A stretch of 55,172 nucleotides of DNA from positions 1 to 55,172 of the forward strand of contig JAKSYS010000409.1 in assembly GCA_022925895.1 (NCBI GenBank), read 5' to 3'. The first letter of the stretch is position 1; every line of letters begins with the position of its first letter. The stretch comes from Fragilaria crotonensis. Lineage: Eukaryota; Bacillariophyta; Fragilariophyceae; Fragilariales; Fragilariaceae. Of the stretch, positions 127 to 47,520 are shown piece after piece. The translations under genes were made by a program, and so were the position numbers. The notes under the pieces were generated by a model. It did no database searches. It was not told the origin of the DNA and worked only from the letters and a program-made list of their open reading frames with translations.

Positions 127-147
127 TACATCTAAGGGTGCCAAAAC
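127..147 (+). repeat. Left terminal inverted repeat of the 12 kb transposon
   Basis: TACATCTAAGGGTGCCAAAA followed by C matches the reverse complement of 12104-12124 without mismatch. Similarity continues inward only weakly (roughly half of the next 19 bases). Confidence 0.8.
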
Positions 148-194
148 TAAGTACCATAGTTGATACAAGAATTTTTTCTCATATGTATTGGAAA

Positions 195-340
195 AATTTC
201 AGGATTCCCAAATGTAGTTCAGGATTCCTGAAGTTTTGTTCAGGTTTACTTATTTAGTTCAGGATTTGGAAGTTTGCAGTTTCCTCATTTTTATGAAGAA
301 AATTTTGCACTCCTGAACTACTGCAGTATTATTCCTGAGC
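195..340. repeat. Left subterminal TTCAGGA repeats
   Basis: Six short motifs of the TTCAGGAWT kind occur in about 145 bases, four in one orientation (for example near 197, 218, 238 and 257) and two inverted (TCCTGAAC near 311 and TCCTGAGC near 332). Clustered subterminal repeats of this kind are typical transposase-binding regions; the binding role is inferred. Confidence 0.6.
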
Positions 341-553
341 TTTTTTCTTCATAATTTCGACACACATAAAACACCGAGTACTGTACGTGTTTTGTACGAC
401 ATACTGGAGTATGTCGTATCGTGGGTGGGCTAGTGTTTGTGCCATACAGTGTACAGTATACAGCGTTTTTTACACCGTCTGCTGGGATACCGTACTAGCG
501 CATGGTTTGTACGCTGTACATTCATTGTACGTTGTACAAGTGTATCACAGCTA

Positions 554-638
554 TGGTGTCTGGTGTCTGGTGTCTGGAGTCTGGTGTCTGGTGCATGGTG
601 CATGGTGCATGGTGCATGGTGCATGGTGCATGGTGTTC
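554..638. repeat. Heptanucleotide tandem repeat (TGGTGTC/TGGTGCA)
   Basis: About twelve 7-bp units: roughly five of the TGGTGTC type (one is TGGAGTC) followed by six of the TGGTGCA type and one diverged unit. The two blocks differ by two bases, as expected from two rounds of slippage expansion. The open frames crossing it are periodic artefacts. Confidence 0.85.
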
Positions 639-1094
639 GGTGCGTGGTACAGTACGTTTATGGTGCGGCTGGTGGTGTACAGTGTCTATTATGCTTGTGA
701 GGTTAATGACGTAGTACGCTATCGAGTACGAAAGTACCGTTACTCAGTTCAGTTAGAATGCTGGTACAAAAGCCAGTATGCTATTGCGTGCTTATGTATG
801 GTATGTGTTGTAGGTACCGTCGTGAAACATACAGAGTATCTTACACGACGGTGTATTGTGTATTGTACGGTGGTGTAGTATTGTATTGTGTGTGCTGCAG
901 TGTCATGTACGCAGAGTACTACCAGGTAGCTAGCTACCGGTAGTCGTATGAGCACAATGCCGTCATACGTGTGTCCTTTTGTGCGTTGCGAGATCAATTT
1001 GTACATTTGTACGGGATAAACATACTGACCTATTTTTGGCACCTGCAGTACCAGTGTTTTCCGTACATTTCTACAAGGAATGCTATCTTATAAA

Positions 1095-1985
1095 GCCATC
1101 GTATTGTTTTATGTAGAAACTTACCTGCGAATTTTTGCGGGAAGCATGTCACCTCAATTCTTCATTTGGTGCGAACTGCACTTCGTGTCAGACCCAACAC
1201 CGCAGTGAATGTTCCATTCTCTGCCACCTTCGCCTCCCACTCTTCGTTTTCGAACGAACCACACTCCTCTCCTGTCTTTGTTGGTGAGTTGTGAATGTTG
1301 TGTGCTGTTTGAGTGTTGATTGATTCGTTTGATCAATCAACAGGATTGATGATGAGTTTTTTCATGCGATTTTCAAGGTGCTGCGGTCGTGCGTGTACTG
1401 TCTCCTACGTACAGTAGCGCGGTACTGTCTCCTACGTACAGTAGTTGGGGTGCTGTCAAATACAGTACCGCGGAACTGTCAAGTACGGTACCACGGTACT
1501 GTACTTGACAGCACCCCAAGTACTGTGCGTAGGAGACAGTACCTCGCTACTATATAGGCAACGGTAGACCAGTACTACTACTGATCTACCATCCACTCCA
1601 CTTTGACACTGGAGCCATCGTACTATTGTTTTACATACAACGCTATTCATTTGCCAACTGCACTTCGTGTCAGACCCAACACCCAACACTGCAGTGAATG
1701 TTCCATTCTCTGCCACGTTTGCCCCCTCTTCATTTTCAAACGAACCACACTCTTCTGCCTTTGTTGGTGAGTTCTTGTGAATGGCGTTTGTTTGAGTGTT
1801 GATTGATTGATCAATCAACACGATGATGACTTTCCTCATGGGATTTTCAAGGTGCTGCGGTTGTGCGTGTACTGTCGCCTATGTATGGTAGCCGTGGTGC
1901 TGTCAAGTACCGCGGTACTGTGGAAGCAATGGTCGACCAGTACTACTACTACTGATCTACCATCCACTCCACTATGACACTGGTG
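1095..1985. repeat. Tandem segmental duplication, two diverged units
   Basis: Unit 1 (1095-1612) and unit 2 (1613-about 1985) start with the same block (AGCCATCGTA, TTGTTTTA), share the block around CACTTCGTGTCAGACCCAAC (1177 and 1664) and end with the same block (ATCTACCATCCACTCCACT, near 1583 and 1954). Unit 2 lacks the large hairpin present in unit 1 and is about 145 bp shorter. No gene is evident in either unit. Confidence 0.7.
1422..1542. repeat. Long imperfect hairpin (49-bp arms)
   Basis: Arms 1422-1470 and 1494-1542 are reverse complements with three mismatches (46/49), separated by a 23-base loop. The arms are rich in GTAC and GGGGTGCTGTCAA. A further partial copy of the left arm (GTACTGTCTCCTACGTACAG) precedes it near 1394. 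Confidence 0.85.
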
Positions 1986-2436
1986 CAGCAGCCCTTGTAC
2001 AGTACTACTGTGTCAATTTCATCGTTCACCAGCACTTGTGTGACTTTCGAGTTGAAGACTAAGATACCACTTCGTACATGTGCTGGCTCGTTCTTCATGC
2101 TTGTTGTACTAATCTCCTTCCACTCTCCTTCCTTTTATGCTATTCCTTTTGAAAACTACTAGGAGCGTGGTGACGACAAGTGTTGTGCTTCTCATTTTGT
2201 TGTTAATTGAGGGAATAAGTACTTCGTCTTGTGTGCGTGCTTCGATTGAGTTTGTAAGGCAATCTGTCATCTAGAATCCAATATTCGGTCATCTGCGAGA
2301 GATTCTCATTGATTTGAGTGAATCAAACCAGATTGATCTACCGGTATTGGTTCTTTTTGTCAGTTGTCTGTTCGCATGCTCAAGAGTTGTATACACGCAC
2401 ACCAGTTGGAGGATTATTCATATTTCAACCAACAAA
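1986..2436. other. Leader region before the GNAT/Ulp1 gene, no gene seen
   Basis: This stretch lies between the segmental duplication and the first ATG with a good context (2437). An open frame runs through the last 120 bases (from 2314), but its residues look like a random hydrophobic extension. I see no other gene or clear regulatory motif. Confidence 0.4.
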
Positions 2437-2940
2437 ATGGCAGAGGTTCCATCACTGTCCCCTGTCTCTCGTCAGCAAGGAGGAGTCCCTATGGATAAGG
2501 CGTACCTGTTCCGTGATGGTATGGATGAATTCACACCACCTCCAGGAACAAAGGTCAATAGACAATTCAGATCGCAAGTTCGAGTCTTTTATCATCACCC
2601 TCGTGCTGTTTCAGAGTTTCCACTACACATGTTCAGCTCTTGGTTTCAAGACCTCCCGTTGTCCAAGATTATGACTCAGAACGAAAGAGAGGACTCCAAT
2701 GAAATTTGGCAATTCAAGGTAGTTACATTGTACCCCACACGTGTCCAAACAAACAAAGCTGAGGCGACAAGGTTTAAGTGGGCGACAGAAGCTGCAAGGC
2801 AATTCTACAGCACATCATTCAATTCTACAGAAGCTGATTTGAGCTCTATCGATCGTGCTGTGAATTCTGATCCATCAATAATGATTGTGGGACGTCCTCT
2901 TGGAAAGAAGATGACCCTTCAAGAAATCTGTCATAGGGTG
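2437..2940 (+). pseudogene. N-terminal segment of the GNAT/Ulp1/papain transposon gene
   Basis: I place the start at the ATG at 2437 (context AACAAAATGGC) rather than at the in-frame codon at 2314, because the extra residues look unrelated. The segment reads MAEVPSLSPV, then a mixed globular sequence without recognisable motif, ending ...MTLQEICHR. In this frame a stop follows at 2992. The next frame opens after a stop at 2912 and continues with a GNAT-like domain, so a +1 shift near GGG at 2936-2938 separates two parts of one gene. Either this is a true inactivating indel or a homopolymer sequencing error. No function can be assigned to this part alone. Confidence 0.55.
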
Positions 2941-5638
2941 CCAAGACTCTGTTGTTATTGCATGCATTACATTTCGAAGTGGAATTGGAGATGAAGTTGG
3001 TGCGTCGTTGGTGCTTTGGCTGTTGATTGCAGAATCTGAATCACGGAAGCCATCCGGTCTTACATCCTGGAGACGGCAAGGGTTTGGACGTCTGATGTTA
3101 GTAATGCTCATCAAGCATTCAACTTTTTTATTATTGTCTCACCGTGAGCTGTCACAATGTCAGGAGAGCCTGCATGGTGTGGACATCTACTTGCAGTGTC
3201 CCCATGACGAGCCAAAGGAATTCTACCAAGCCTGTGGGTTCCGTCAAATCAATCTCCAAGACACAACTGGCATTGAGTTTCTTCCCAAGACAATTGCCGA
3301 CACCTTAATGGACGAGACCACAGGTGGATTTGCGTGGATTGTACCAGATTCTGAGGAGCACTGCATTATCCCTCTGATGAAACTTTCTTCCGGTTCCCTT
3401 TTGAACAGTGCTGCTAACAGTGCTGCTGTCGAGGTTGTTGAAAGCAACAGTGATGTGATCAGTGCAACAAATGATGGTTCCCCGTGTGCTGTTGTTGAGT
3501 CAGAGGAAGAAAGCAAGATCAATATAGTCGCAAAATCGAGTGGTGGTTCCCCTTCCCTCGTGAGCAGTGATGTTTTGGAGATTGTGCAGAGCAACAATGA
3601 GACAGTCAGTGCACGGAATGATGGTAGCAACACCAGAAAAACATTTGTATGGTGCCAATACCCTTCATCAACAATCGATCTCCAAGATGATGTTGCAAGT
3701 GGAGCATTGCTGACAAATGCAGATCTGGAAGAGGCATTTACCGGTCTGGACTATTTGAACAACCTTCTTCCACCACCATTTGGTGACCTGGTTCTGCCTG
3801 ACCAGTTGCGTGGTTTTGGAGAAATGGGATCACAGGAAAGGCTTGATCATAGCGAAAGTGGTGGGAAAACTTGGATGGCCACCCGTGAGCTGCAAATGAT
3901 GACTTCACTCCTCATGAGGGATGGCAGGTATCACACATCAGTTGCAATCCTGTCTTTTGACGACATGCAGGTAATTCAAGGTTGCTTTGGACGTCTTCAA
4001 CGTCATCTATCTGCAAAGAAGTACGAACGACTTGATGGTAGCCAATGGAGCCGATCATGCAGAATGTCTTGCCCTTGTGAAAAAAGGTATGGAAGTTCTA
4101 AGGAAGAACTTTACCAGAAGTATGATGACCAAATGAATCGTGTTGTGAAGGAAGTCCTGTTGTTCTATCCAGGGCTTCTGCAGAAAAGGTTGATTGTGTT
4201 TCCTACGAATCTCAGCGACGATCATTGGGGGGCAACATTTGTTTTCAATGCTGGAGACGTTGTGGCTGCCACGGATGATGTATCATGCCTCCGGACATGT
4301 TTTTTTCGCTATTGCAGTCTTCATCCCTCCGGCACGAGAAAAATTCCAAACAATGTTGGTGTTGTCTGGTTCCTGAACCTTGCCTTCAGTTACCAGGAGC
4401 AAAGGAAAAACAGTGCAAATGATAGCAGCACTCCAAACAAGATGAAGTGGCTCAGTCCGTTCGGACGAACCTTTTTTGGGCAAATGAAGGGCACCAATAC
4501 ATTCCCTGCATTGAGGGTGTTGGATAATGATGTTCTTCCCCTGCAAGAAGATGGCCATAGCTGTGGGATTGGTATTATAGCTGCAATTGCAATAATTCTC
4601 CGAGATATCATTGGGACTCAAGATGGAGTTGCGGCCTACAACGAAATGTTTAGACGCGATCGCATGGAAATCCAGATGTCAACTGATGTGAAATCGAAGG
4701 AGCACATTTGCTGTTTTCCACAGGGAATATTCACAAAACTGTTTAAAAGGGTTGATTCGGCTTCCATTTCCTACTTGCATGCGATGAAAGCACAGTGGTT
4801 TTTGCTGTTTGATCGCATTGCAGAATTTCAACACGTCACAGTGCCAAAACGTCAGAATTCAAATCATTTGATGGATCCCTGTTACGGAAGTCTGAAGTTG
4901 GAACTTCAGACTTTCACGTGGCCCTGGATGCCAGTACCATCCAATGCCGCAGAGGAAGACTGTGTGACCTCACAGGACGACAGTGTTACGTTGGAGGATG
5001 TTTCTTCCAGGGAGGATGTTTCGCGAAATGCCAATGAACGGAGTTTGCCATCAGAGGAGGATGTTGCCGATTTCAAACCATCTGGATCTGCTGATGGACC
5101 TGAACAACAGGAAGAAGATATTGATCTCAACGAAGCCTGGTGGAATGATCCTGCTAAGCTTCCCCGAGCAAGCAGGGTATGGAAAGGTGGGCCTCCTCGT
5201 ACGTATGGTTATGGAGACATTCATGTACCTGATGAATGCCCGAAATTACCTTTTGGAGAAAGTAGGTACAAAACATTGGTATCAGACAATGAAATTGAGA
5301 AATTTAGAAAAAAGTGGCGAAAGAAAGGAGATGAGAAAGATCAGTCAGTGCTTCTGAGGGATGAAGAGGCAATGAACAAATTTGTGGAGGACAGATTTTT
5401 GTACTGGGGTTGGAGCTCTACCAAAGATCACCTGAAGAATGTGGAAAAGAAGCGGGCCGAGATGCAAAGAAAAATTGATGGATGTAAGAAGAAAAAGACG
5501 AAGGATGATTACAGAGAGCAGTACACGAAAGAAATAAAGTTTATGAAGAAGGAAAGGAAGAAATTCAAAAGGGCATTTGAATTGGAATGGACATTTGGCA
5601 CTGAGGCCATGGTGCATGGCCTCAAGTACAACACGTGA
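2939..5638 (+). pseudogene. GNAT-like acetyltransferase domain fused to Ulp1-like cysteine protease
   Basis: The frame is open from about 2939. Its first ~110 residues look like a GNAT N-acetyltransferase fold: a strand, then SWRRQGFGRLML (3068-3100), matching the R/Q-x-x-G-x-G/A acetyl-CoA loop, and the terminal EFYQACGF motif (about 3218-3241) common in GNAT enzymes. A Ser/Glu-rich linker follows. The second half matches the Ulp1/SENP (C48) pattern: catalytic His in DDHW (4223-4225), Gln in LPLQEDG (4544-4546) and nucleophile Cys in HSCGIG (4562-4564). The expected Asp position appears to be Asn (WFLNLAF). The C-terminus is Lys/Glu-rich, probably coiled coil. Ulp1-like proteases process SUMO-like proteins and are frequent cargo of eukaryotic DNA transposons; the fused acetyltransferase is unusual. 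A stop at 5636 is followed by homologous coding sequence in another frame. Confidence 0.7.
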
Positions 5639-6768
5639 AGATACCTTTGTTGCACTTTTGGTTTACAATGTTAAGACAAAAGAAGGAAAGTTGGAAATGA
5701 AGGAAGAAAAAATTGCTGTTTCCAAAGACTGGATCAAGGATGCCGATTATGCAAAGGGTAATCCAACATGTCATTAACCTTGGAAACACGGATGGATTTG
5801 TACTTGTTCCTGAAGGGAAACCATCCTCATTCATACTAAAAGGTACATAAGCTGCAATACGTTCACCCACAGACACAATGGGTGTTTGATCCTCAGTCGA
5901 AAAGGTCCTTAAGGAGCAACAGTGACTCACCAGGGGTAAACATATGAAGCAGATACAGGCCCCTGGTTACTGGGAGGTCATCTTTCATGGAGAAACACAG
6001 CCCATTCGAACTGATGAAGACTTTGTGAAACAATTTAAGACAGGATTCTTGGAGGAGGTCAAGCGTATGAGGTGTGGATTTGTTGACATACCAGTGGGCG
6101 ATTTCAAAGAATCACATTTGCATGAATATCCCAAGCTGCAGGTTCCTGAAGCACCCCAGGTGCACTTTGTACAATCCGAAGGTGAAGATCTTTGTGTTTC
6201 AAAGTCATTGGCCAGTGCTTTATATGCAATTGGCTTTGATAATGCTGCCAAATCCATTAACCATTTTGGTGAAAGTCACCTAAGAGGAGGTACTGTTGAT
6301 GCCATTCGAAAGGTGGGACAGTTTGCTGAAACTCAGCTGCCTACATGGATCACCCGAAAAGTTCTGAAGAGACCACACATGTTTGATTGGCAACTCCTTC
6401 AAGAACAAATGAAGGACACAATGGTATTGGCTGTGCTCAATGAATCCGATGGAAATGGTTCACATGCAGTTACCATTCACAGTGGGTATGTGTATGATGC
6501 AAATGAAGTGGTTGCAATTCCTCTCTGCAAGGAGGCCTTGGATTATTGCTGCTCAACCTCAACTGTGAAGAATGAGTTTGTGAGCTTTCGGAAGGCAACT
6601 CTTTTTTTTTATGATGGCCCAGACATCAACAGGAAGGCAAGTTTTACTCTTTGGGTAGATTCAAACAAGCGAAAGCGAGCCGATGGTGATGGTCCAAAGA
6701 TTGTGAGGGCTCGAACAGACGATGGCAACATGTTTCCTTTAGGTACTTTGATGCAACAAGCTAGCTAA
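5626..6768 (+). pseudogene. C-terminal segment with papain-like second protease domain
   Basis: After the stop at 5636 the coding sense resumes in a different frame (REDTFVALLVYNVKTKEGKL, from about 5626), shifts again between 5780 and 5944 (a stretch encoding HPQTQWVFDP is recognisable near 5852) and then runs open to 6768. I therefore read it as the broken tail of the Ulp1 gene rather than a separate gene. The last 275 residues contain a papain-like arrangement: Cys in EDLCVSKSLASAL (6193-6195), His in GSHAVTIH (6463-6465) and Asp in VYDANE (6496-6498). The spacing and the H-x(10)-D pattern suit a C-H-D cysteine peptidase or an inactive relative. Fold assignment is inference. The tail (SNKRKRADG) is basic. 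The stop codon overlaps that of the convergent transposase. Confidence 0.5.
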
Positions 6769-9650
6769 GCGAATTTGGATGCCCACTCTGTATATGGTTT
6801 TGTCTCAAGAACTGTGGAACTGTTGTGTGAGATGGATATAACAAAACAGGGGGCCACGACAGTGTTTCCAGAGACAAGGTGGTATGTTGGAGACCACTTC
6901 CACTCTCTCAACAGGGTTGACTCGTGTTCTTTAATTTCTTCTGTTGTGGATTGAACAACCAGTTGGTATCTCTCGTCCGGATCCTCGGGTGAGTCAACAA
7001 CAACTACAAGAGCCAAACGACAGGGAAACTTCCCATGTTCCCCAAAGTCAATTATCATCCAGTCATGTATGGGACCATCGGACTGATAGCAGGGATGACA
7101 TCGAAAGGTGTGGACATCTCGTTTGTATTCAGTACAAAAGGTTATTGAGTCGGATTCCTTAAAGGAATCAAAAGAAACTCAATCAACTCCAGGGAAGAGC
7201 AAGTAAATCACGGTGAGTTCTGGTGTCCCATTCAATTTTGTACTGAATTTGTTTACTCGATTTGAATCGATAAACACAGCCAAATGTTGCTTGTCCGGTG
7301 CTCTGAAAGATTCCATTCCTTGTTGTTTCATCATCATGGTGGCTGTCGGGTACATCAGCATCACCATCTGGTTGCTCCCATATGCGCGTGTGTATGGTGT
7401 CGATCATGAAGGAGTACATTAAACGTTGGGCTGCCTGAAGTTCATATGCAGAACCCTCAATTCGCTTCTGTGCCCGTCTCCCAGGGTGCTTTGCAGCAGG
7501 AATTAGAAGTGATTCTGGACGCTGTGCACAAAAGTTCACTGGAGAGCCAAACCGAGACATATCATCCACAATGTGTAACAACTCATGGAATTTCGGAAAC
7601 TTCCATGCATCCTCGGCATTGCTTTTCTGTCCTTCCTTCCTTATGATGGTTCCCTTTTTCTTACCCTTTTTCTTGTCATCCTCCTTTCCCTCAACTTTCA
7701 AGGGAATGGACTGTTTGCACATATCCATGAAATTGCGAATGGAATCCTGATGTTTCTTCATTTCATTTGCAACATGTGCTGGATTTGTAGTCTCCCAGTA
7801 ATGACTCTGGTTTAGCCAAGCATCGAAACAAAGGAGAGATTCAAGTACTTCAAGGACCTCAGGAACCTTCTTAGTTGTTCTTTTCTCAAGACATGTTTGG
7901 ATCATTTGCCATCCTGCTTCATATTGGAAGAGGATGACAAACAAAAACGAGGCCAGCGTTCTGATGCAGTTATCTTTGTCAAATTTGTTACCCCATTGCT
8001 GAAATCTGTTGATGGATACTCCTTTCGGTAGGTTTGGCGATGAGACTTGTGAAATGCTATTGCAAGGTCATCAAAGGCAGCCTTCTTGGATGCTGGAAGA
8101 CTGTCCAATATAAGTTTTGTTACTTTCTCGATGACACCTTTCGAAATGCATGCATTGTCTCCACAGGAGTGGCCCCAAAGATTCCACGCTCAGGGTCAGC
8201 AAAGGCAATGTGTTCAAATGCATTTTCAAGTTTATGTTGAGACCATCGTTTCCTGAGATCATCATCATTACTCCTGGCAATGAAACCCATATCCGAGGCT
8301 ACCAGGTATTTGCAATGGACATCACAGTTCTTCAGATCATCATAATTGACATCACAGCACCGATGAGGCGTTGGATTCCACTGGTGTGAACACCATACCG
8401 ACCACACAGCATATCTCCTTCTTGCATATCTTGAATGATGAACAACACACATGTGACAATGTCGACACAGATTCTACCCTTTGGACCAATTGGCAAATGA
8501 ACACCACACAGTTGTGGTGAACATTTCGAAAGGTCTCAATACAGCATCCAGCTCCTTATGATAGATACGAATGGCATCGCCCATACGAAGTGTCTGCTTC
8601 TGAGCTGATGAGGACTTCCTCTTTGGGAGAAAGCCATGATAGCCCCATGCCTTGATACTCCTTCTGAATTTTTCTGTAAAAATGGCTGGAGTGAACATGT
8701 AGGGTTTAAGTGAAAGCGATCATTCCCTGTTACAGAGTACGATCAATCCATTGGATGATTGGAACAAACAATTGCTTCTGAGGATCTGTGATTAATCGAT
8801 CATACGCCTTGCGATAGACACTCCCGGACAGTGCCTCACCCAAAACATTGCTGCCTTTCAATTTGTGGTAGGGCTTCAGGGGATCATTGATATCAATGGC
8901 AAGGTTTTCTGCAGTCATAATGCTTGGATTTTGCAGCAAACTTAGCAACTGTGAAGCGAAGTCAAAACAAATCACATCTGATGGAGAGCCATGATGTACA
9001 TCCACTCTTCGTACAAAGGAAGCAGTCTTTTCCCATTACGAACTGAGTTGATCAGGGCATCAACATTTTGGCACGCGAGTCCACCCACTGGGTTGTAAGA
9101 ATAATTATCAGCAGATGCAGAGCGTGCCCACTCCAGGACTTGACCAAAAGTGTAGTCGGGTGCATTGGCATGGTCCAGGATTTTGAGGAGAGAAACAGTC
9201 CACTTCTGATCGGTAGTATACATGAAGTTTGAACGAAATGATGGGGCTTCCACATCTTCATCAAGTGCAGAATTCGTACAGGTAAGAATGTTTGGGTCAT
9301 CACTTAACACGGACAAATCATCACTTTTGTTGCAGTCCTCGATGTCCTCACAAGAAGTGCTTTCAACTTCCACACCATTGCCAGCCGGAAACTGCAGAAG
9401 GTTGTCTGTGCCATCAAAATCCATGTGGGGATCATTCACCATATGTCGCCTTAAAAGGGCAGGCCTCTTGTTACTTGTGCATGTGATATTCCCATCCTCA
9501 TGAAGACGGCGACGGTGTGAAGCAGAAGCCCCATGTGTTGCTGCATGGTGTGATTTCTTCACAATGAAATTATAACACCCGATGTTTCTATCAATATGCT
9601 GTGTATATGCTGCTTGATTGGAAAAGGGTTTCTTGTTGAAATTCAGGCAG
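6765..9650 (-). pseudogene. Large DDE-type transposase, multiply frameshifted
   Basis: Read on the minus strand, coding sense spans about 9650 to 6765 in at least six frame segments. Recognisable blocks in order: an N-terminal part with DRNIGCYNFIVKKSHH (about 9590-9540) and an acidic stretch; QLFVPIIQWIDRT (8735-8770); MFTPAIFTEKFRR (8698-8660); VLFIIQDMQEGD..CGRYG (about 8450-8395), a plausible strand with acidic residues; ADPERGIFGATPVETMHAFRKG (about 8210-8145); and HELLHIVDDMSRFGSPVNF with QRPESLL..AAKHPGRRAQKR (about 7570-7450). The C-terminal piece (7058-6765) starts MIIDFGEHGKFPCRL. The GATP..MH and the LLH...GSP.NF blocks resemble transposases of the Plavaka/KDZ/CACTA-like group. It would cut and re-join the element ends. 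The density of frame breaks shows it is dead unless the assembly is poor here. Confidence 0.65.
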
Positions 9651-10056
9651 AAGGGTTTTGACAGAAGAGCAGGGGTGCCTTTGAGGAAGCAGACGAGGAC
9701 AACATTTTGAAGAGAGGTTTTGAAGAAAGGGTTTTGAAGAGGACGAGTGAAGTGAAAATGAGGTGTTGAAATTGACAGGACACAGATTCACTAAACAGAA
9801 GTTCGGAAAGCGTGCATTCAAATTGTACATTTACTTTGGTACATTTTTGGTGTATGTAAAAAATGAAGGGGTGTGGTATGAATTCAAAATTTGAAAACCC
9901 TGCATGAATGTGTAGAACCTACATACCAACTCGGTACTTGGTATGAAATTCAAATGGTGGCAAAAAGACTATCCCACAAACAGGATTTTCAGTGTTCAAA
10001 ATTTGGCGCACAATCGGAAAGTTTTCACACAACAAGGAAGCACCACAAATACAACC
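9651..10056. other. Divergent intergenic region between transposase and accessory gene
   Basis: The region separates the minus-strand transposase from the plus-strand accessory gene, so it should hold both promoters. The part nearest the transposase (9651-9830) has repeated KPF-coding AAACCCTT blocks and may still be transposase N-terminus. I see no clear TATA box or repeat. Confidence 0.35.
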
Positions 10057-11010
10057 ATGGCATCAATGGCACACCAAACAGCAGCAGGCATGACTGCCTT
10101 AAAGCCCAGCTCTAGGAAACAAAGGAGAGACTTCATAAGAGGCGTGAAGCGAGTGACCACAGATCCCAATGATCTGATTCAAAGTGACAACGAGGAGGAG
10201 GAGGAGGAAGAAGTGCCACGGAAAATGGATGCAAAACTAGGACAGAAGCATGCATACGGAAATCCACCATCCCTACCTTCAACTATTAAAGTCGGAAATC
10301 AAGTGACAGCCAACTAACATCATCGGTTCCAGGGCTAAGCAGCATAGTGGACATGAGCATGACGGAAAATACAGAAGAGAATCAAATCAGTGTGATCAAG
10401 ACTTGCATCAAAAACACGTGTTCTCTATTTGGAAGTTCTATCAAAAGACTATCATTCTCATTTCAGTGAAGATGAGAAAACACTTTGTGGCTTTATCATG
10501 AAGCACACAAACATTCGAGGAACCGAAAACTGGTGGCTTGGGATGCGGAGAATAGTTGTAAAACACACACTGATCTTGAACAATGCAATAAAAAACATGC
10601 AAACGAAATTCAAAGGTGAGGAATTGAAGTGAGTGTACTTTGCCAAAGCCCGAGCATACTCACACTCACTTGCATTCAACATCAAACACCTTGCATCCAG
10701 AGGATTCACTTCCAATTTAGGAACGTATGAACACAGCCTATACAGTGGAAGCGAGGAAGAAACCAGTTACCTCCTCAAGATGAGGGATAATATCTGCTAC
10801 TATGCCCAAATCATAGACACCTATGCCCCATGCATTGTCGGCAGCAGCAAGTGGAATAACACTATCAACATGGAGAACCACTGTGCAACAACTGACAGAA
10901 AAGTATGGAGCAAGAAAATCCTGTCCATAAGTGATGAAGCATTCATTTTGCTGTGCCTGATCAACTATGGGAAGAGGTGGTTCGCGGAATTAGTTAAGAC
11001 AGAGAAAATG

Positions 11011-11087
11011 GTAAGTTTATCCGAATGGTTTGTCACAGAACAAACAACAAGAAACTGACTTGTTTTGTTATCACTTGTTGGAAACAG
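11011..11087 (+). other. Spliceosomal intron (77 bp)
   Basis: Begins GTAAGTTTAT and ends GGAAACAG. Removing it keeps the frame exactly at a codon boundary (AAA ATG / CGA ATT), joining ...TEKM to RIGTWTDEDNN. An in-frame stop inside (11056) would otherwise end the protein. Confidence 0.8.
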
Positions 11088-11129
11088 CGAATTGGTACAT
11101 GGACTGATGAGGACAACAACAACCTACCC

Positions 11130-11211
11130 GTAAGTTACACTATGATACTAAATGAAATGAAAAAACCACATCCTAACTTCTGACCAATCTTTGCAATACC
11201 ATGTTCGGCAG
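11130..11211 (+). other. Second spliceosomal intron (82 bp)
   Basis: Donor GTAAGTTACA at 11130, branch-like CTAAC at 11173, acceptor GGCAG ending at 11211. The donor lies at a codon boundary after NNLP. The acceptor choice is less sure because a frameshift in the downstream G run confuses the reading frame. Confidence 0.6.
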
Positions 11212-11760
11212 CCACCACTTTACACATTCTCCAGGAACAAGGGTGCTCATGATAATGGGGGGAGGCTGTGGTTGGTCACAGGTGGGAATGAGGAAATACG
11301 ATGAATTATACATGGCCATCAAGAATGATAGAAAGAAATCAACCACCCCAACATTCAACCAGGAACTACTTAAAATGTTTCTGTCCAGAAGGAAAAAGGA
11401 GTCTGGCCGGGGGGTCAGGAAACAATTTGATGACAAGGGTAAGAAACGCCCACACAAGTGCATTGATGTATTTGACGAGGACTCTGATGAGGAGGATGAT
11501 AACTACTCCAGTCATCTTGCTCCTGAACTTGTCTACAGTGAATTGAAAGTGGAGGCAGTTTAGAATAGATCAGACACTTAGTAATGAATAGTAGAATGGT
11601 TCATCAAAGCCACACGAATAGGCACAATTAAAACTAATCTCCAACAAAAGTTAAAATGAGCGACAATAACATCTATTATATGAACAATGTCAGCTCAGAA
11701 CTACTGAGGTGATTACTTCATACACACTACACAGCAAACTTCTTCTTTTCGAATATCTAA

Positions 11761-11975
11761 TTCAGGAATTGAAATTCATGATCACAAATGAAGAAGTGGT
11801 ATAGTTCATATATTTAGAGTCCAAGAGTTCAGGAATCCCACCAGTGTTAGTAAAAATGAGTCAGTGAAATTCAGGAATTGAAATTTTGGAGCTCAGGAAT
11901 GCAAAGTATGAGCTCCTATGCAAGAGATGAAAAAGTTCAGGAAAAATAAATTTCAGAGTTCAGGAATACGAGGAA
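11761..11975. repeat. Right subterminal TTCAGGA repeats
   Basis: At least six TTCAGGAA-type motifs (near 11761, 11828, 11870, 11893, 11936, 11959) mirror those of the left arm. A short hairpin with arms TTTTTACCTA and TAGGTAAAAA lies just inside the TIR (12018-12042). Confidence 0.65.
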
Positions 11976-12103
11976 ACCCGCTTCATACACATGATGTACA
12001 AGCTCTTTAGTCCTAAGTTTTTACCTATATTTTAGGTAAAAATTATGAACAAAAAATTATCATATCAAAGATAATTGGTTTTTCATATCCAAGAGCCGAC
12101 TTG

Positions 12104-12124
12104 GTTTTGGCACCCTTAGATGTA
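12104..12124 (-). repeat. Right terminal inverted repeat of the 12 kb transposon
   Basis: GTTTTGGCACCCTTAGATGT plus A is the exact reverse complement of 127-147. Confidence 0.8.
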
Positions 12125-13358: not shown

Positions 13359-14662
13359 CAGGCCTCCTTATTTTCGTGTAACTCCGAAAATAACGAAAAT
13401 AGCTAAATTCGGGAGTTTTGAAAACTTATTTTCGGATTAAATTCGGGAATTACCTAAATGGCATTGTTTACTCACCATTAAGTGCCCAAAAGTACACCCT
13501 TTTGTTCCATTGATGGACTACTTACTAAATAGAAAGGCTCATGAAGGTTCCTGTGTTCTTGTGTGCACTGTAAAAGTGATTCATTGGGGCAGGTGATGTT
13601 GGAAATGCTTCACTCTCTCCTAGTGTTGATCTCTTTGCAAAATGATGATGGCAAAGCCAGATTCCACCAAGCTCATACTGGGCAACACACTAGCAGTGAG
13701 CCAGAGGTCAAACAGTCTCTGAAGAAAGCAACTTGTGCATTCTATTGCATCCAATCTTGTCACTGCCTTTCAAGCTACTACACACTACTTCCTTCATGAT
13801 CACCATACTAGGCTATTCTGGCTTAGATGTCCAAAGTCGGCATCAATGCTCTCAATTTTCCTCTCAGATGTTGCCAAGAGGCAAATATTCTGATGTTGTA
13901 ATGCTCTTATGATATCACTTGGTGCCATGAAACACAGATCTTAGTTCTTGTTGAAGAACCATGCAGGAATCTCATCATTGATTTCCCAGCATTCTCTGCA
14001 ACTCCATTGCTCCACAACACCCATCCACAATTGAAAAAAATGAGATGTCATTGACTTCAGACCAGCACCATGGTATGGTGATCTTGATGCACTGCTTCCA
14101 CTTGCTTCATAGCTACTTTAATTCAACATGCATCTGCTGCACTCTTCTTGCTTATTCTACGATTTCAGTAAAATTCTTGCTCCAATCATCCTCTTAAATC
14201 AATGCAGATGTTTGCAAAGATGGCTCACAATGCTATTTGAATTGTTCAATGGTAGATCTGTTAAGATTCTATTATGTTGTGTCCACTTTCATGTCAGTTT
14301 GCTGTCAGGAGTACCAGTATTGCCAAAGCCGAAGGTTGTACGCAACAAACATACCACAGCCAACGCAGCTTTTGACACAAACACACACTCACAAATCTGC
14401 ACAGGACACTTCATATTTTAATTTTTATTGAATTCCAATGCACCTATGGACTTCTTGGGTGTGATGGGGAGATGGTTGTAACTTCAGAATTGAAATTCCG
14501 ACAGTTTTTCACCATCCCTTCGACCGTCAAAGTTCGACCATTTTTAACACGGCGTTGTACGAGAGAAAAGTGCCACGTCACCGTTATTTTCGGGAGTTTC
14601 TCAGACCTTAATTTCGGGAAAATTCCCGAAATTAATAAAAAACCCGAAAATAATGAGGCCTG
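13359..14662. mobile_element. Non-autonomous hAT-like DNA transposon (1304 bp)
   Basis: Terminal inverted repeats CAGGCCTCCTTATTTTCG (13359-13376) and its complement at 14645-14662 match at 17 of 18 positions. A perfect 8-bp direct repeat CTCCCGAC flanks the element. CAGG-type ends with an 8-bp duplication are the hallmark of the hAT superfamily. Both subterminal arms are rich in TTCGGG motifs, as hAT transposases prefer. The interior (about 13450-14450) has no frame longer than about 97 codons and no recognisable transposase, so it must be mobilised in trans. Confidence 0.8.
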
Positions 14663-18837: not shown

Positions 18838-19660
18838 TGTGGACCTACCGGATATCAACAACATTCAATCACCACGAATGTTGACGATCATGATAACAGC
18901 GATTTTGAAGAGTGTTTTGCGGCTGCAACCATGCGTTCAGTCACGATCGATGTGGCCACTGCATCTTTTGCGTTACCCACTTCGGACACGGTTGTGACCT
19001 CAGAGACTCTCGCCCCCGCAGAACCGCTGCTCCTTCGTCGTTTGGCCGCCACATATGATCCGGATTCTGATTTGTCTTTCGCTCATGCGGACAACGGCTC
19101 AATGGCATGCACTACGAACGAAGGCCTCCCTGCTTTTTGCGTATCGCCCTCTCCGACAAACAAACGTTCGTCTATTCGACGCCGGACAACACGCCCACCA
19201 TCCAACCGGTGTTGGTTTTCTCTGTGTCCCAGTCGATAATCGCGGACGTTCCGGCACTCCTGCACACGTTTTCGTACGCACGTACCACACGCCAACGATT
19301 CCGGGTATAATCATCTCCCACTCCGCCATATCCAAACAACTGGGCACGACAGGTTACCACATGTCCAGTTTTGCCGACAGTCCAGGTTTTGTTCACTTTC
19401 CTCACCGGCTTCGTCGCTCGCAGGACGTATACATTCGTTTGCAACCCATGAATTTGCGAGGTGGTTTAACGTTCACTGAGGCCCTGATTGTTCCCAGCGC
19501 CGACGCTCATTTGAAACCCTTGCCCAGAGAGTTATCTGTACGCCGATTGTGTACTGACCATGCACCCGTTCCAACAACCCCTGTTTCGCTTCTTGATCCA
19601 ACAGACGGTATGCATTGCAAACCATGTCATGTCCCACCGGAGCCGGATTTTCTCTAGGCC
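18838..19660 (+). pseudogene. Gag-Pol linker and aspartic protease region of copia 1
   Basis: Three frames are used in turn. The first ends near 19130 and holds SFAHADNGSMACTTN, whose DNGS (19090-19101) sits where retropepsins have D-T/S-G. The second carries LLFAYRPLRQTNVRLFDAG, FVRTYHTPTIPGIIISHSAIS and LRGGLTFTEALI, and stops at 19655. The third begins near 19615 and continues into integrase. The same DNGS motif occurs in copia 2, which supports a real variant protease rather than an error. Protease would cleave the Gag-Pol polyprotein in the particle. Confidence 0.6.
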
Positions 19661-22600
19661 TGTTGTCTGCCCTGCCCAGCGACAACACAAGGCCTCAAGA
19701 ACTACATGGGTGCGGGATGATCGCTGCTGATGCCAGTCATCATTCATCACCGCCGACGCCCGCAGCGCCCGGCTCCCCACCGACATCAACCGGTGAAGTC
19801 CCCGATAGATCTCGGTCCTGTCCCCCTATTCCACCGGCAGTTTCCCTTGACGACGAACCACAGTCTTACACCGTCCGTTCCTTGTCTCGGGCCGCTCTAC
19901 GAATGCTGTGGCATCAGCGACTTGGACATTTGAACTTTCGCCGCCTTTCCGAGATGCATCGATATGTCAAGGGCATGCCCAAATTCCCTCTCCCCACCGA
20001 ATTGGAAGGTTGTCCTGTCTGTCTGGCAGCCAAGATGAGGAAGGCCCCGGCATCTACTAAGACGACCATGCGAGCTACCACATGTCACCAAGGACTCTCC
20101 ATTGATTTTGGTTTCATGGTTCAAAAGAGTCGCGACACTACTCGCCACACCAACTTGGTCGGACTTAACGGCGAAACTTGCTATGTATTACTAACGGATC
20201 ACTACAGTGGGCGCATCCATGGTCGTGCATTCGCCACGAAAGCACCTCCTGTGGAATGGTTGAACAGTTGGCTTGCGAGCAATGCCCCAGACTGCGCAGA
20301 CAAATACGTGCGTATGGATGGCGGTGGCGAACTGGGTAAATGCCGCGAGATTCACAAAACATTCACAAATTTTGGTTACGTGGTCGAGCTTACCGGTCCT
20401 GATGCTTCGCACCAGAATGGCCCGGGTGAACGACCCCATCAAACAATAGGCGATGCGCTCCGAGCCATGTTGTCTGGTGCAAATTTGCAACCTAACTTCT
20501 GGCCGTACGCATTCTACCATTATTTGCGTCTCTATAATGTGGTTCCACATGGAGATCGGCCTTCAAACCCATATGAAATGTGTGGTTTGCCCCTGCCCAA
20601 TCTCACAAAGTTGCGAACGTTCGGTTGCCGCGTCCACGTCCGTCCCACCACTTCCCGCTACGGTCGCCTCGTTCCCAACGCTCGTCTTGGTGTTTTCCTC
20701 GGCTATTCACGTTCGATGAAAGTGTTGTATTACTTCGACATCGGCTCGTCCACGGTTAAAACAGCGACGCACGCACGCTTCGATGAGGGTATGAATGACC
20801 TTGATACTCCGCCCCCCAATGTCAAGCTTCTCCGCAACCTTGCGAGTGACGGCGTTGTCGAACCTGATTCCATCAATCTTTCCACTGCCGATTTGGACAT
20901 CACCGATGACCCTTTTGAGCGTCTTGACACGTTGACACAGCCAATCACTTGTGAGCATGAAACCCTTGGTTTCGACGTCAAAGAATGCCATATCCGCAGA
21001 CGGGGCTATGTCTCTGCCATTCTCCCTAACACATCTGCATCTCGCATTCGCAATGTACGACGCAAGTACATTGGGGCATTCATTGTCTCGATCAACGGCA
21101 CAGCAGTCTTCACCGCGGAGTCCATTCTCACGGCTCTCCAATCTGTTGCCAAGTCCGATGCCAGCTCGTTCGAAATCGTCTTCGCCCCCGAACGATATAT
21201 TCCGGTTCACGAACGTCACCTGGACTCACCTTTGCATTTATCGGTTGATCAGCTTCGGACCATCGCCACGATTCAAGCGAGTTCCCCTTTTGAGGACTTT
21301 GACCACGATCATGCACAACTCCTTGTCCGCTCGTTGAACACAACCACTCATGGCACGGCAGCAGAGCAAGGCCTTGGCAGCTTCACTCGTCGCAAACTCC
21401 GTCGTCTCCCAAATTGGCCCGAATGGCAGGCTGCGGAATTTAAGCAACTTGACTCTATGGAGAAGCAAAACATGTACGGCACCCCGACTTTCCCTCCTCC
21501 CGACGCAATCATTTTGCGTCAGCATTGGAACTATGCTATTAAAGGTGATGGGACGCGAAAAGCCCGTAACTGTTGTGATGGATCGCCCCGCGCTGCTCCG
21601 CAGCTCAAATTGGCAAATACCTATTCCTCCTGTATCGAGCAACCGTGCATGCGTATGTTCTTTGCTCTCTGTGTGCATGAAGGCTTTGTCTGTTTGAAGG
21701 TTGACGCTACGAATGCCTATGCAAACTCCCCGCCGCCTGACCAACCAACGTTTGTGCGCATCGACGACCAGTATGCCGATTGGTATCAACACCGTTTTGG
21801 CACTCCCGTCTCTCGAGACATGGTCCTTCCTGTCCAGCATGCGCTTCAGGGCCACCCCGAGTCAGGTGCTCTCTGGGAAAAGTTTGTGAATTCCGTTATT
21901 GCTCGACACGGCTTTACATCCACTACCCATGAACGCAGTATATATCATGGCTCTTTTCACGGCCATCGCATGCTCATCTGTCGTCAAGTCGACGATTTAG
22001 CCATCGGCTGTTCGAACGTGGATGCCATTCGCCTCCTCGTGAAGACGATCTGTACGGAAGACGGTATCGATTTACGCGACGAAGGTATCCTTTCTTCTTT
22101 CAATGGTGTCGATGTCGAACAATCCGACAGATACATTAAGATCTCCTGTGAATCGTACATTGACAAGTTATTGGCACATTACGGATGGTCGTCTTCGGGT
22201 TCTCGCGACACAGACGAGAAACCAATTGAACCGATTGCCTCGTCCACTATCCAGCAGATGTTTGATGACTACGCTGCCGCCCCGCTCGAAGGCACCGATA
22301 CTTCGCAAGCGCTGGAAATGTCTATGGGTTTTTCGTATCGGAGTGTGCTTGGTGCCCTAATTTACGCCTACGTGGTTGCGCGACCTGATATCGGCTACGC
22401 TGTTACTACGCTGGCTCGCTTCTCGGACCATCCTGCGAAAATCCACTATGATGCCCTCCGTCGTGTCGCACGGTACCTCCGTATGACAAAGAATTGGGGC
22501 CTTTTATATTGGCGACATTCGAAACTGTCCTCCCTGCCTACAGGTTTATTCGAAATTCTGTCACCTGATTTATCCCTTCCGGATTTCCCGCAATCACAAG

Positions 22601-23097
22601 TGGCCACCGAGCTCACAGGATACGTCGATGCAGCTCACGCGACTGATCTTCACACTCGTCGCTCCATCACCGGACTTGTCTTCATGTTTGGAGGTGGCCC
22701 CATTGCCTATAAGTCGAAGATTCAACCAACTGTCTCCACCAGTTCTACGGAGGCCGAATTCATCGCTGCTGTGCATGCTGCTAAGATTGCCAAATATCTT
22801 CGTTCGATTCTTCTGGAACTCGGTTACCCCCAAACATCTCCGACCACGTTGTACGAGGATAACGCCGCTGCTATTTTAATGGTTAATGCCCAGCGTCCCA
22901 CGCCTCGGTCGCGCCATATCGATATCCAACACTTCGCTATTCAGGAATGGAAAGCGAATCGCGAAATCGTTTTGGAGCACATCCCGGGTATTGTCAATTC
23001 TGCTGATTCTCTCACAAAATCCCTTGGCTCGACGCTTCACCATCGCCATGCACGCCGCTTGATGGGCCACTACGGCGCTCCTTGGGCACCGGCTTAG
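19615..23097 (+). CDS. Pol of copia 1: integrase, PDZ-like insert, RT, RNase H
   Basis: Open for 1160 codons. Order: GAG-pre-integrase zinc region (LWHQRLGHLNF...CPVCLAAKMRK, residues ~98-140). Integrase core with Asp in LLTDHYSG, Asp in VRMDGGGELG and Glu in NGPGERPHQTIGD. A PDZ-like segment (residues ~453-525; HIRRRGYVSAILPNTSASRI, IGAFIVSINGTAVFT). RT with Asp in LKVDATNAYANSP (~697) and RQVDDLAIG (~793). RNase H with GYVDAAHATD (~1005), SSTEAEF and YEDNAAA. The catalytic box is QVDD instead of the usual YVDD. The true protein start lies upstream in the Gag-Pol polyprotein; this frame is entered by frameshift. The polypurine tract follows the stop. Confidence 0.9.
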   Translation: MQTMSCPTGAGFSLGLLSALPSDNTRPQELHGCGMIAADASHHSSPPTPAAPGSPPTSTGEVPDRSRSCPPIPPAVSLDDEPQSYTVRSLSRAALRMLWHQRLGHLNFRRLSEMHRYVKGMPKFPLPTELEGCPVCLAAKMRKAPASTKTTMRATTCHQGLSIDFGFMVQKSRDTTRHTNLVGLNGETCYVLLTDHYSGRIHGRAFATKAPPVEWLNSWLASNAPDCADKYVRMDGGGELGKCREIHKTFTNFGYVVELTGPDASHQNGPGERPHQTIGDALRAMLSGANLQPNFWPYAFYHYLRLYNVVPHGDRPSNPYEMCGLPLPNLTKLRTFGCRVHVRPTTSRYGRLVPNARLGVFLGYSRSMKVLYYFDIGSSTVKTATHARFDEGMNDLDTPPPNVKLLRNLASDGVVEPDSINLSTADLDITDDPFERLDTLTQPITCEHETLGFDVKECHIRRRGYVSAILPNTSASRIRNVRRKYIGAFIVSINGTAVFTAESILTALQSVAKSDASSFEIVFAPERYIPVHERHLDSPLHLSVDQLRTIATIQASSPFEDFDHDHAQLLVRSLNTTTHGTAAEQGLGSFTRRKLRRLPNWPEWQAAEFKQLDSMEKQNMYGTPTFPPPDAIILRQHWNYAIKGDGTRKARNCCDGSPRAAPQLKLANTYSSCIEQPCMRMFFALCVHEGFVCLKVDATNAYANSPPPDQPTFVRIDDQYADWYQHRFGTPVSRDMVLPVQHALQGHPESGALWEKFVNSVIARHGFTSTTHERSIYHGSFHGHRMLICRQVDDLAIGCSNVDAIRLLVKTICTEDGIDLRDEGILSSFNGVDVEQSDRYIKISCESYIDKLLAHYGWSSSGSRDTDEKPIEPIASSTIQQMFDDYAAAPLEGTDTSQALEMSMGFSYRSVLGALIYAYVVARPDIGYAVTTLARFSDHPAKIHYDALRRVARYLRMTKNWGLLYWRHSKLSSLPTGLFEILSPDLSLPDFPQSQVATELTGYVDAAHATDLHTRRSITGLVFMFGGGPIAYKSKIQPTVSTSSTEAEFIAAVHAAKIAKYLRSILLELGYPQTSPTTLYEDNAAAILMVNAQRPTPRSRHIDIQHFAIQEWKANREIVLEHIPGIVNSADSLTKSLGSTLHHRHARRLMGHYGAPWAPA

Positions 23098-23161: not shown

Positions 23162-23584
23162 TGTTCGTGCATCATTATATATGATATTGCTACAGTACGG
23201 TACATTATACCGTAATCACCGGTACACTGTATCTATATGGTACTGTCGCATATCCTGACCGGACTACGGTAGTCTAAAAAGGAGTGGACCTTTCCACTCC
23301 GGTCACAACTTCTATCTTAGCCGACTATTACCTCATTAGCATCTTTGCCGGTCCATTTGATCGTAAGGGTGAAGAGGTCCAGTCACAGCTCTGATATCGA
23401 CAAGCATCCAATCTTCCTTACTGTCTTCACTTGTTTCGCCCGTGTGTTTGCACCTGTTTTCAGCCGGACTCATTCGTATTCGCATTCTCATTGTCTCGGC
23501 ACCGAGTTGGTTCGCTTGAAGGTGCAAACCCCTCTCCCAGGCGAGCACTTGCCGACGCGTGGCCTTGGAAGGTTTGGTTTCACA
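23162..23584 (+). repeat. 3' LTR of copia 1
   Basis: Starts TGTTCGTGCATC, ends TTTCACA. Same length as the 5' LTR, with about seven to eight substitutions. Its end interrupts the LINE ORF2. Confidence 0.92.
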
Positions 23585-46400: not shown

Positions 46401-46724
46401 ACGACCGAATATACGGCCACTGAAGTGGTCGGTCAGTAGGACATAGCACGTCTCACCGTTGAGGCCGACGAGAGTGTTGTGTCGAACTGAATCGCGGCTC
46501 TTTTGGACCATGAAACCAAAGTCGATTGACAGGCCTTGGTTGCAAGTTGTCGCCCGCATCGTGGTCCCTGTTCCTTTTGGAGTCTTCCGAAGCTTAGCGG
46601 CAAGGCAGATGGGACATTCTTCGAGCTCCGTCGGGAGCTTGAATTGTGGCATTCCTTTTACAAACCGGTGCATTTCTGATAAACGCCGGAAATTTATGTG
46701 TCCAAGGCGTTGATGCCACAGCAT
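43474..46724 (-). pseudogene. Pol of copia 2: integrase, PDZ-like insert, RT, RNase H (frameshifted)
   Basis: The main frame (46724-44361) opens at LWHQRLGHINF and runs through integrase (LLTDHFSG, VRMDGGGELG, NGPGERPHQT), the PDZ-like insert (about 45655-45440; HIRKRGFVSGVIPNTTASRI, IGAFVVSINDVAVFT) and RT up to RQVDDLAIG. Within RT, residues encoded at about 45110-45005 are out of register between two compensating indels: the correct sense (QHWNYAIKGDGTRKARNCC) is in a neighbouring frame. At 44361 the frame breaks; KPIEPLAASTTQQMFDDYA continues in the next (to about 44090), and RNase H (VDAAHATDLTTRRSITG) in a third from 43968. The natural stop (compare WAPA in copia 1) is displaced by one more base, so that frame runs into the LTR. 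Confidence 0.8.
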
Positions 46725-47520
46725 TCGTAAGGCCGAGCGGCTGAGGATCGCACGACGTATGCTTCCTGGTGGTTCGGCGAGAATTCCGGGAGGTCTTCGT
46801 CGGTGTCCAAGATGTCAGGACGTTCGGTAATGATGTCCTGGTAATCGATTGTACGGAATTCAAGACCTGCGGAGCCATCCCATACCCATAGATGTAGGGC
46901 CTTGCGTTACCGTCAGGTGAAACGGGCAACAGGCCTAACGGTGGGTCCAGGGCAGGTGGAGAATGGCATGCGGTGCAAGTCATGCCGTCGGTCGGATCGA
47001 GGATCGTGGCGGCAGTGGCAGGTGCATGTTCCGTGCATAGTTTCCGAACGAGGACTTGATCCGAAGGGCGGAGCCAGATGGGCTTCGGGCGACGGAGCAA
47101 TCAAGGCTTCGGTGAACGTCAAACCTCCTCGACTTGCCGTCGGTTGCAAGATAATGTAGATGTCTTGCGAACTTCGGAGGCGATTCGGGAAGTGAATATG
47201 TCCGATGCTCTCGGTGAAGCTTGACATGTGGTATCCATCGGTGCCCAGCTGCTTCGAAATGGCTGCGTGCGAAATAATGATGCCTGGAATTGTGGGAGTG
47301 TAGTACGTCCGAATGAACACGGACGATGGGCCTCCGGCATTTCCACGATTATCCACTGGTACACACAAGAAACCGACGCCGACAGGTTGGTGCGCGTGAT
47401 GACCGGCATCAAAGAGGCGGACGTTTGTGCGGCGGAGTGGACGATAAGCAAACAAAAGGTGGCGATCGTTGGCAGTGCAAGCCATGGATCCGTTGTCAGC
47501 ATGTGCGAACGAGTTGGCGG
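46725..47520 (-). pseudogene. Protease region of copia 2 (frameshifted)
   Basis: The frame open from 47791 encodes NSFAHADNGSMACTAND, with DNGS at 47486-47497, then LLFAYRPLRRTNVRLFDAG, YTPTIPGIIISHAAIS and ASRGGLTFTEALIAPS. It leaves frame near 47050; DQVLVRKLCTEHAPATAATI and LDPTDGMTCTACHSPP continue in another frame (47100-46594). The Asn in the active-site triplet matches copia 1. Confidence 0.6.

Follow-up and report, generated by a model that had tools for sequence, protein, structure and literature searches.

What kind of mobile element occupies the first 12 kb of contig JAKSYS010000409.1 of the diatom Fragilaria crotonensis (assembly GCA_022925895.1), and why would such an element carry, beside its transposase, a gene joining a GNAT acetyltransferase domain to two cysteine protease-like domains? 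The window, that is, the whole stretch of 55,172 nucleotides that was analysed, had previously been interpreted from its letters alone as holding, at positions 127 to 12124, a transposon with a perfect 21-bp terminal inverted repeat (TIR), mirrored subterminal clusters of TTCAGGA, and three genes in a fixed layout, namely a transposase, a GNAT-Ulp1-papain protein, and a spliced accessory gene. Our preferred reading, to which comparison of sequences leads us to give a probability of roughly 70%, is that the element represents a cut-and-paste lineage of autonomous type among the Plavaka transposons (CACTA-related, CMCT clade), resident in a diatom, and that its GNAT-Ulp1-papain gene encodes a helper that would act against silencing. 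All co-occurrence counts refer to the species' own genome (62.1 Mb in 881 contigs), in which the window lies on contig C347 and the other C numbers used below are likewise contigs. Papers are cited by PMC number and for those parts of their text that were available.

Searches of the genome with the TIR pattern, allowing up to one mismatch, returned 119 matches (55 forward and 64 reverse), compared with 0 for the reversed-pattern control. The 100 matches listed contain 36 neighbouring TIR pairs, 15 of which enclose 11.8-12.6 kb and 14 of which enclose 6.7-6.9 kb; five others measure 7.3-10.8 kb, and two measure 1.5-3.4 kb. The left 601 and right 601 bases each found dozens of genomic matches that break off at the proposed ends (best 40 candidates scored per side). 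In the window, the inverted-repeat arms (127-152 and 12099-12124) are 26 nt long and 96% complementary. Because other copies end at 129 and 12122, the termini CATCTAAGGG...CCCTTAGATG are placed at these positions, the TA on each side is read as a target-site duplication (TSD), and the perfect TIR, CATCTAAGGGTGCCAAAAC, is 19 bp long rather than 21 bp, the repeat being imperfect further in. The perfect inverted repeat of the sequence-only reading therefore stands, with the remainder of its length belonging to the TSD. A 2-bp flanking duplication was found in 18 of 21 copies checked (8 of 9, 8 of 10, and 2 of 2 in a related family), the copies without one being C402, C55, and C69, and its sequence varies between copies (TA, CG, AT, GA, TG, TT, GC, and CA). 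With 15 pairs in the 12-kb class, an empty control, and a consistent 2-bp TSD, the 12-kb transposon is real, and an unrelated pair of miniature inverted-repeat transposable elements (MITEs) is ruled out, as the TIR pairs bound full-length copies that bear genes. The CATCTAAGG ends that form the terminal sequence of the lineage recur on both sides of the elements in C728 and C449; in C131, C874, C259, and C5, where one end was visible, they occur there as well. The subterminal clusters were also borne out, the first 250 bp and the last 400 bp containing five TTCAGGA each where shuffled sequences averaged 0.066 and 0.107, but they are not strictly mirrored: three forward and two reverse copies of the motif lie at the left end, and all five at the right end are forward. 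Such clusters were seen at the ends of all nine window-family copies scanned, in both size classes, and were absent from the ends of two related elements of the C728/C449 family.

The transposase gene is homologous to a 1038-amino acid (aa) frame in C728 and to a 969-aa frame in C5. Its broken pieces in the window gave no match to the Pfam Plavaka family (PF18759), for which the curated cutoff is 26.3 bits; both C548, of the window family (E 1.7e-9, 37.8 bits), and the relative C5 (E 4.9e-12, 46.1 bits) exceed it. The profile search recommended by the sequence-only reading thus assigned the transposase to Plavaka, and with it probably to the CMCT clade. Transposases of five families were aligned, and the candidate catalytic residues were picked by analogy: where the sequences align, an N-terminal Cys/His motif is followed by the D of IQWIDRT, the D of VIQDMQEGD, an H(3)H motif, and the E of RPES. 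Plavaka has been placed in a clade, together with EnSpm, Transib, and others, whose members share C(2)C and H(3-4)H (PMC12730594). Three of the five aligned families (C728, C5, and C259) contain C(2)C, whereas its first Cys is replaced in the window family and C131, a point that counts against the assignment.

Comparison with the fungal PlavakaB elements, which have CATCA..TGATG termini and a TSD of 2 or 3 bp, shows several shared features (PMC12730594). The diatom termini, CATCT..AGATG, match four of the five terminal bases of PlavakaB, and the 2-bp TSD, the CATC..GATG ends, the Pfam Plavaka transposase, the D, D, H(3)H, and E residues, and the presence in some families of a further enzyme gene adjoining the transposase are common to both. 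The differences lie in the host, in the CATCT found here in place of CATCA, and in the extra gene: fungal Plavaka families occur with or without a TET/JBP gene (PMC12730594), whereas the diatom element has GNAT-Ulp1-papain and, in addition, a spliced accessory gene. EnSpm-Plavaka transposons have been reported in the green alga Auxenochlorella (PMC12633428), and in the ichthyosporean Amoebidium a Plavaka transposase is reported to flank giant repeats (PMC11244446); to these hosts and the fungi a diatom would now be added, with termini close to those of PlavakaB. Two other assignments were rejected. The element has clade-level transposase motifs in common with CACTA/EnSpm, but CACTA/EnSpm proper is ruled out by termini that are not CAC..GTG, by a TSD of 2 bp rather than 3 bp, and by the Pfam match to Plavaka. 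En/Spm elements possess short subterminal repeats and encode a transposase together with an accessory protein, and in this the diatom element resembles them. The KDZ group (Kyakuja, Dileera, and Zisupton) is described, in the text available, as also carrying chromatin-enzyme cargo such as TET/JBP; the Zisupton TSD is 8 bp there, compared with 2 bp here, and this difference, along with the Plavaka match, excludes KDZ.

Table 1. Positions in the window of the transposon, its ends, and its genes and domains.
Feature	Positions	Strand	Remarks
Complete Plavaka-type DNA transposon	129-12122		11,994 bp; ends fixed by other copies and by the flanking 2-bp duplication
Left target-site duplication, TA	127-128		
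Right target-site duplication, TA	12123-12124		
Left TIR	129-147	+	19 bp perfect; imperfect out to 152
Right TIR	12104-12122	-	
Left subterminal TTCAGGA cluster	198-317		+ at 198, 218, 258; - at 226, 311
Right subterminal TTCAGGA cluster	11761-11965		+ at 11761, 11828, 11870, 11936, 11959
GNAT, Ulp1-like, tail, papain-like gene	2437-6768	+	pieces 2275-2994, 2915-5638, 5926-6768
GNAT acetyltransferase domain	2632-3311	+	spans frame break of window copy; aligns with C131 and C5
Ulp1/C48-like cysteine protease domain (probable)	3713-4885	+	alignment A1; conserved H, N, Q, C
Papain-like (Gln-Cys-His-Asp/Asn) domain	6013-6651	+	alignment A2; catalytic columns
Plavaka transposase gene with N-terminal zinc finger-like motif	6768-9787	-	in pieces in window copy; Pfam matches in relatives
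Accessory gene	10057-11563	+	apparently three exons; introns about 11011-11087 and about 11130-11211

The GNAT-Ulp1-papain gene, like that of the transposase, is interrupted by frame breaks in the window copy, and its make-up is best seen in relatives. In C449, the GNAT, Ulp1-like, and tail parts share a single open frame of 1414 aa, in which long linkers separate the domains, and the papain-like part lies in the next, overlapping frame; in C131 and C259, the tail and papain-like part are found in one frame. BLASTP recovered the order GNAT, Ulp1-like, tail, papain-like in C131, C259, and C728 at roughly 24-53% identity to the window pieces, and in C5, the GNAT and Ulp1-like parts were recovered in fragments, with the papain-like part coming from separate matches. 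We infer that the four parts make up one protein, with no single frame containing all four having been seen. The frame break inside the window's GNAT domain is absent from C258, where one 335-aa frame covers the region. The GNAT domain itself, previously only suspected, is confirmed at the level of profiles: PF13673 is matched above its cutoff in C131 (E 1.2e-5), 10 of 14 aligned members match the same family (best 2.7e-6), and the GNAT profile found NAA50 structures in the PDB (E 3.6e-4). The window's own GNAT frame reached only PF13508 at E 0.13, and its raw reading frames gave weak Pfam matches only, because they are broken; a 907-aa window frame found nothing in the PDB with phmmer. Pfam matches to CbtA toxin, Apyrase, OSTMP1, Pox_A6, and similar families were below the curated cutoffs and were taken as chance.

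The Ulp1-type protease that had been proposed for the middle of this protein is probable. Counting the rows with a letter at each position, the expected His and Asn are present in 16 of 16, Gln in 14 of 14, and Cys in 15 of 15. PF02902 was the family matched by the most members (7 of 16, best E 0.0063), weakly and below the cutoff, and when the profile was aligned by hhalign with that of four genuine C48 domains of the same genome, the E value was 0.0021 and the His, Gln, and Cys columns coincided; for three other profile pairs, the figures were 0.54, 0.76, and 0.52. Several observations weigh against the assignment. The hhalign probability was just 13%, the middle catalytic residue would be Asn and not Asp, and a whole-genome scan with PF02902 gave 63 matches (E up to 1), none of them at loci of the transposon lineage. 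Profile A1 retrieved no Ulp1 structure from the PDB; its only matches there, with E values between 0.16 and 1, were to T-complex protein, in a region C-terminal to the catalytic part, and to one RAB11-interacting protein. Single-sequence structure models were unusable for both domains (pLDDT 33.7 for the window Ulp1 part and 32.7 for the papain part), and neither fold was confirmed by them. What holds of the earlier proposal is the set of invariant residues along with weak profile matches, and the Pfam cutoff is where it falls short.

For the second protease-like domain, the name papain-like is used on the basis of a motif only, the Gln/Cys/His/Asp pattern. Again among rows with a letter, Gln and Cys are each present in 18 of 18, His in 14 of 15, and Asp and Asn in 14 of 14. 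No informative Pfam match was obtained for this part, and profile A2 found nothing in the PDB, so that of the second cysteine-protease fold claimed earlier it is the residue pattern that was recovered. These empty searches and the lack of a usable model would fit a conserved structural domain whose residues only resemble those of papain, an alternative that we consider possible, if on the doubtful side, given how nearly invariant the residues are, that they follow the papain order, and that the pattern extends to relatives at 28-31% identity. Searches of IMG/VR with A1 and A2, and of bacterial and archaeal genomes with A2, confirmed no relatives.

Both domain types were also encountered elsewhere in the genome. 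Long frames on the minus strand at L020:2816-4528 (C312) and L021:2268-4040 (C687) combine a papain-like domain, at 28-31% identity, with a Cys-rich N-terminal region, and C312 has a weak tail match as well. GNAT, Ulp1, and transposase were not found in the fetched stretches of these two contigs, no domain could be named in them, and the papain-like domain may occur more widely than in the transposon lineage. In the scan with PF02902 (Peptidase_C48), 59 of the 63 matches were over the cutoff, many of them in long frames (e.g. C129:32005-32466, C707:20186-20578, C305:14414-14803, and C631:15975-16388); these sites probably belong to a large and distinct group of genes or transposons that bear Ulp1.

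The three genes foreseen by the sequence-only reading are all present in the window, and their association is not peculiar to it. When the listed matches were compiled, 17 divergent loci (C131, C449, C259, C140, C220, the left locus of C733, C407, C175, C408, C686, C728, C167, C106, C147, C474, C620, and C572) carried papain, transposase, Ulp1, and accessory matches, and in all 17 the layout is accessory (-), Ulp1 (+), papain (+), transposase (-). Sixteen of these loci span 7.9-10.3 kb and one, C572, spans 22 kb. Because the loci were selected for having all four matches, their number informs the layout and not how frequently the set is complete. Among the matches listed for other divergent loci, C839, for example, is without Ulp1, C200 without transposase, and C872, C314, and C454 without the accessory gene, and the papain part is missing from C874 relative to its sister C131. 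The layout is not fixed across the lineage, contrary to what had been claimed, as the accessory gene lies beyond the transposase in the window family and beside the GNAT gene in the 17 divergent loci. Clustering of the 16 Ulp1-like rows at 75% identity gave seven groups, and every group had GNAT and papain matches at one or more of its loci. This recurrence of the gene set in seven divergent groups of the same genome agrees with a distinct element lineage, as first suggested.

Ratios of nonsynonymous to synonymous substitution (dN/dS) were calculated with codon windows below 25% identity dropped, and reading across frame breaks may inflate both dN and dS. Values were obtained in all but 4 of 19 comparisons (one was without synonymous change and three were saturated). 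For the multi-domain gene, 12 of the 13 comparisons with a value fall at 0.10-0.60, and for the transposase, two of four comparisons gave values, 0.08 and 0.11; overall, the ratio is 0.08-0.60 in 14 of 15 and below 1 in 15 of 15. These figures are consistent with purifying selection in most comparisons of the multi-domain gene, as for the transposase, although the 0.74 of the Ulp1 part between the window and C548 tells against constraint on that part. They bear on the proposal that the element picked up the extra gene from host DNA and carries it as a passenger, by transduplication of the kind proposed for Ulp1 in plant MULEs. Capture of Ulp1 by transposons is described as frequent in plants (PMC2528002, PMC13317346), and this genome contains many other C48-bearing loci, but seven groups that are roughly 24-60% identical retain both the domain order and the catalytic columns, and dN/dS is below 1 in every valued comparison. 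Neither is expected of a recent passenger, and this explanation is very improbable.

Of the 14 listed copies of 6.7-6.9 kb, the 4 that were fetched have in common with the window both ends, the accessory gene, the first part of the transposase gene, and a stretch on the promoter side. The GNAT-Ulp1-papain gene and most of the transposase were not found in these four, and most copies of this size appear to be without two of the three genes that the sequence-only reading had joined. Three of the four are 0.10-0.19% apart, and the fourth, C599, differs by 2.8%. Another pair in this size range, C364, matches the GNAT-Ulp1 frame and would be a deleted large copy rather than the standard 6.7-6.9 kb type. 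These copies also enter into whether the GNAT-Ulp1-papain protein is instead part of the transposition machinery, for example with proteases that process either the protein itself or the transposase, or that free the latter of SUMO, and no anti-silencing role. Such a function would agree with the pairing of the gene with the transposase, on which it converges in the compiled loci, with mostly purifying selection as on the transposase, and with the long linkers that part the domains. It is made unlikely by the fetched 6.7-6.9 kb copies, whose ends move without the gene in cis, and by fungal Plavaka, which occurs with or without TET/JBP and for which the available text of PMC12730594 names no such protein, so that a transposase alone may suffice.

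Under the preferred reading of a Plavaka lineage with an anti-silencing helper, excision and insertion of the element would be the work of the transposase together with the accessory protein, which would sit on the subterminal TTCAGGA repeats as their likeliest binder. The GNAT-Ulp1-papain protein would work in trans on host modification systems or on proteins of the element. Its likeliest activities would be to strip chromatin or transposition proteins of SUMO, or of some other ubiquitin-like tag, and to acetylate a partner, and the element would thereby escape silencing. The 6.7-6.9 kb elements would probably be mobilized in trans by the 12-kb copies. The nearest tested parallel for a SUMO/ubiquitin- or chromatin-directed toolkit of this kind would appear to be VANDAL/KIU. 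In plant KIU-VANDAL elements, an Ulp1 domain is joined to an anti-silencing protein that is reported to act on short motifs of related elements and to relieve silencing, although what the Ulp1 domain itself contributes there is not known (PMC13317346), and Ulp1-like regions are carried by grapevine CACTA and MULE families (PMC2528002). The diatom element shares with the KIU-carrying VANDAL/MULE transposons a transposon-borne Ulp1-like domain (PMC13317346, PMC2528002). Anti-silencing through short non-coding motifs of related elements, reported for KIU-VANDAL, would be a further likeness. The two differ in that KIU-VANDAL elements are MULEs and the diatom element is of Plavaka type, and neither a GNAT nor a second protease-like domain is mentioned in the available text on KIU-VANDAL. 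A bolder version can be put forward only tentatively, in which the lineage fixed one three-enzyme counter-silencing protein, an acetyltransferase with a deSUMOylase-like protease and a papain-like one, unrelated to it, whose family is missing from Pfam. This protein would work in trans on ends marked by family-specific subterminal repeats, as KIU/VANC is reported to do in plants, and would have evolved independently.

A combination of GNAT-Ulp1-papain with Plavaka was not found described in the literature searched, subscription journals and Repbase entries being outside its reach. Enzyme-carrying anti-silencing transposons have been reported, in the sources available, from plants (Ulp1, KIU-VANDAL) and fungi (TET/JBP), and the diatom lineage, if correctly read, would be a further, separate case. 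It would also make the silencing of transposons in algae, and the protein-modification countermoves to it, testable with copies that were recently mobile.

Recent movement is indicated by two full-length copies that are only 9 substitutions apart in 11.8 kb, and near-identical copies occupy different places and carry different TSDs. The window copy differs from C427, C701, and C258 by about 4.4% overall and by 45-52 substitutions in about 7.3 kb of the main coding region, with its left 2 kb being a different variant. All five 12-kb copies of the window family that were fully read (the window, C427, C701, C258, and C548) have broken frames. Between C427, C701, and C258, pairwise comparison over 11.8 kb counted 9-14 substitutions and 48-75 indel events, and because indels so outnumber substitutions among near-identical copies, the broken frames are read as probably assembly indels more than decay, the source of error being not proven. 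Repeats in assemblies are often polished less well than unique genes. That the window copy and its relatives are dead, with frame breaks that are true decay, would explain why all five copies are affected and why several host chaperonin genes have long unbroken frames in the same assembly, where indels are accordingly not assembly-wide. True decay should yield mainly substitutions, the reverse of what was counted, and poorer polishing of repeats offers another source for the indels, a point tempered by gap columns that are not clearly enriched in homopolymers (87 of 411, for a baseline of 17.6% of bases). Death of these copies is accordingly judged quite improbable. Two copies on one contig, C95:6747-18595 and C95:63782-75686, are bordered by closely similar sequence outside an identical AT duplication, which suggests either that a segment was duplicated or that both inserted at one position in a repeated target.

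The accessory gene apparently consists of three exons. Predicted splice donors at 11011 and 11130 are identical in seven of seven aligned copies, the first acceptor is kept in six of the seven, and the second in all seven. In alignment A4, the row of the window's second piece, which had been set against non-homologous parts, was left out. Relatives of the gene occur in divergent families of the same genome, and searches of the protein against Pfam gave nothing convincing.

Mobile elements also crowd the remainder of the window. A short element with inverted ends AGGCCT...TTATTTTCG, recognized by eye at 13360-14662, is probably an unrelated MITE or solo element near the transposon. Open frames at 19597-23097 (+), 44361-46814 (-), and 49055-50248 (-) we take, from their motifs, to resemble Copia-type polyproteins, and frames of 1577 aa (23580-28313, -) and 992 aa (28289-31267, -) look by eye like ORF2 and ORF1 of a LINE. 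Elsewhere in the genome, the silicon transporter family PF03842 gave 19 matches, of which the strongest scored 646 bits and 18 exceeded the cutoff, which fits a diatom host, and three tandem silicon-transporter domains at C97:29749-33762 apparently lie in one open frame of 1456 aa.

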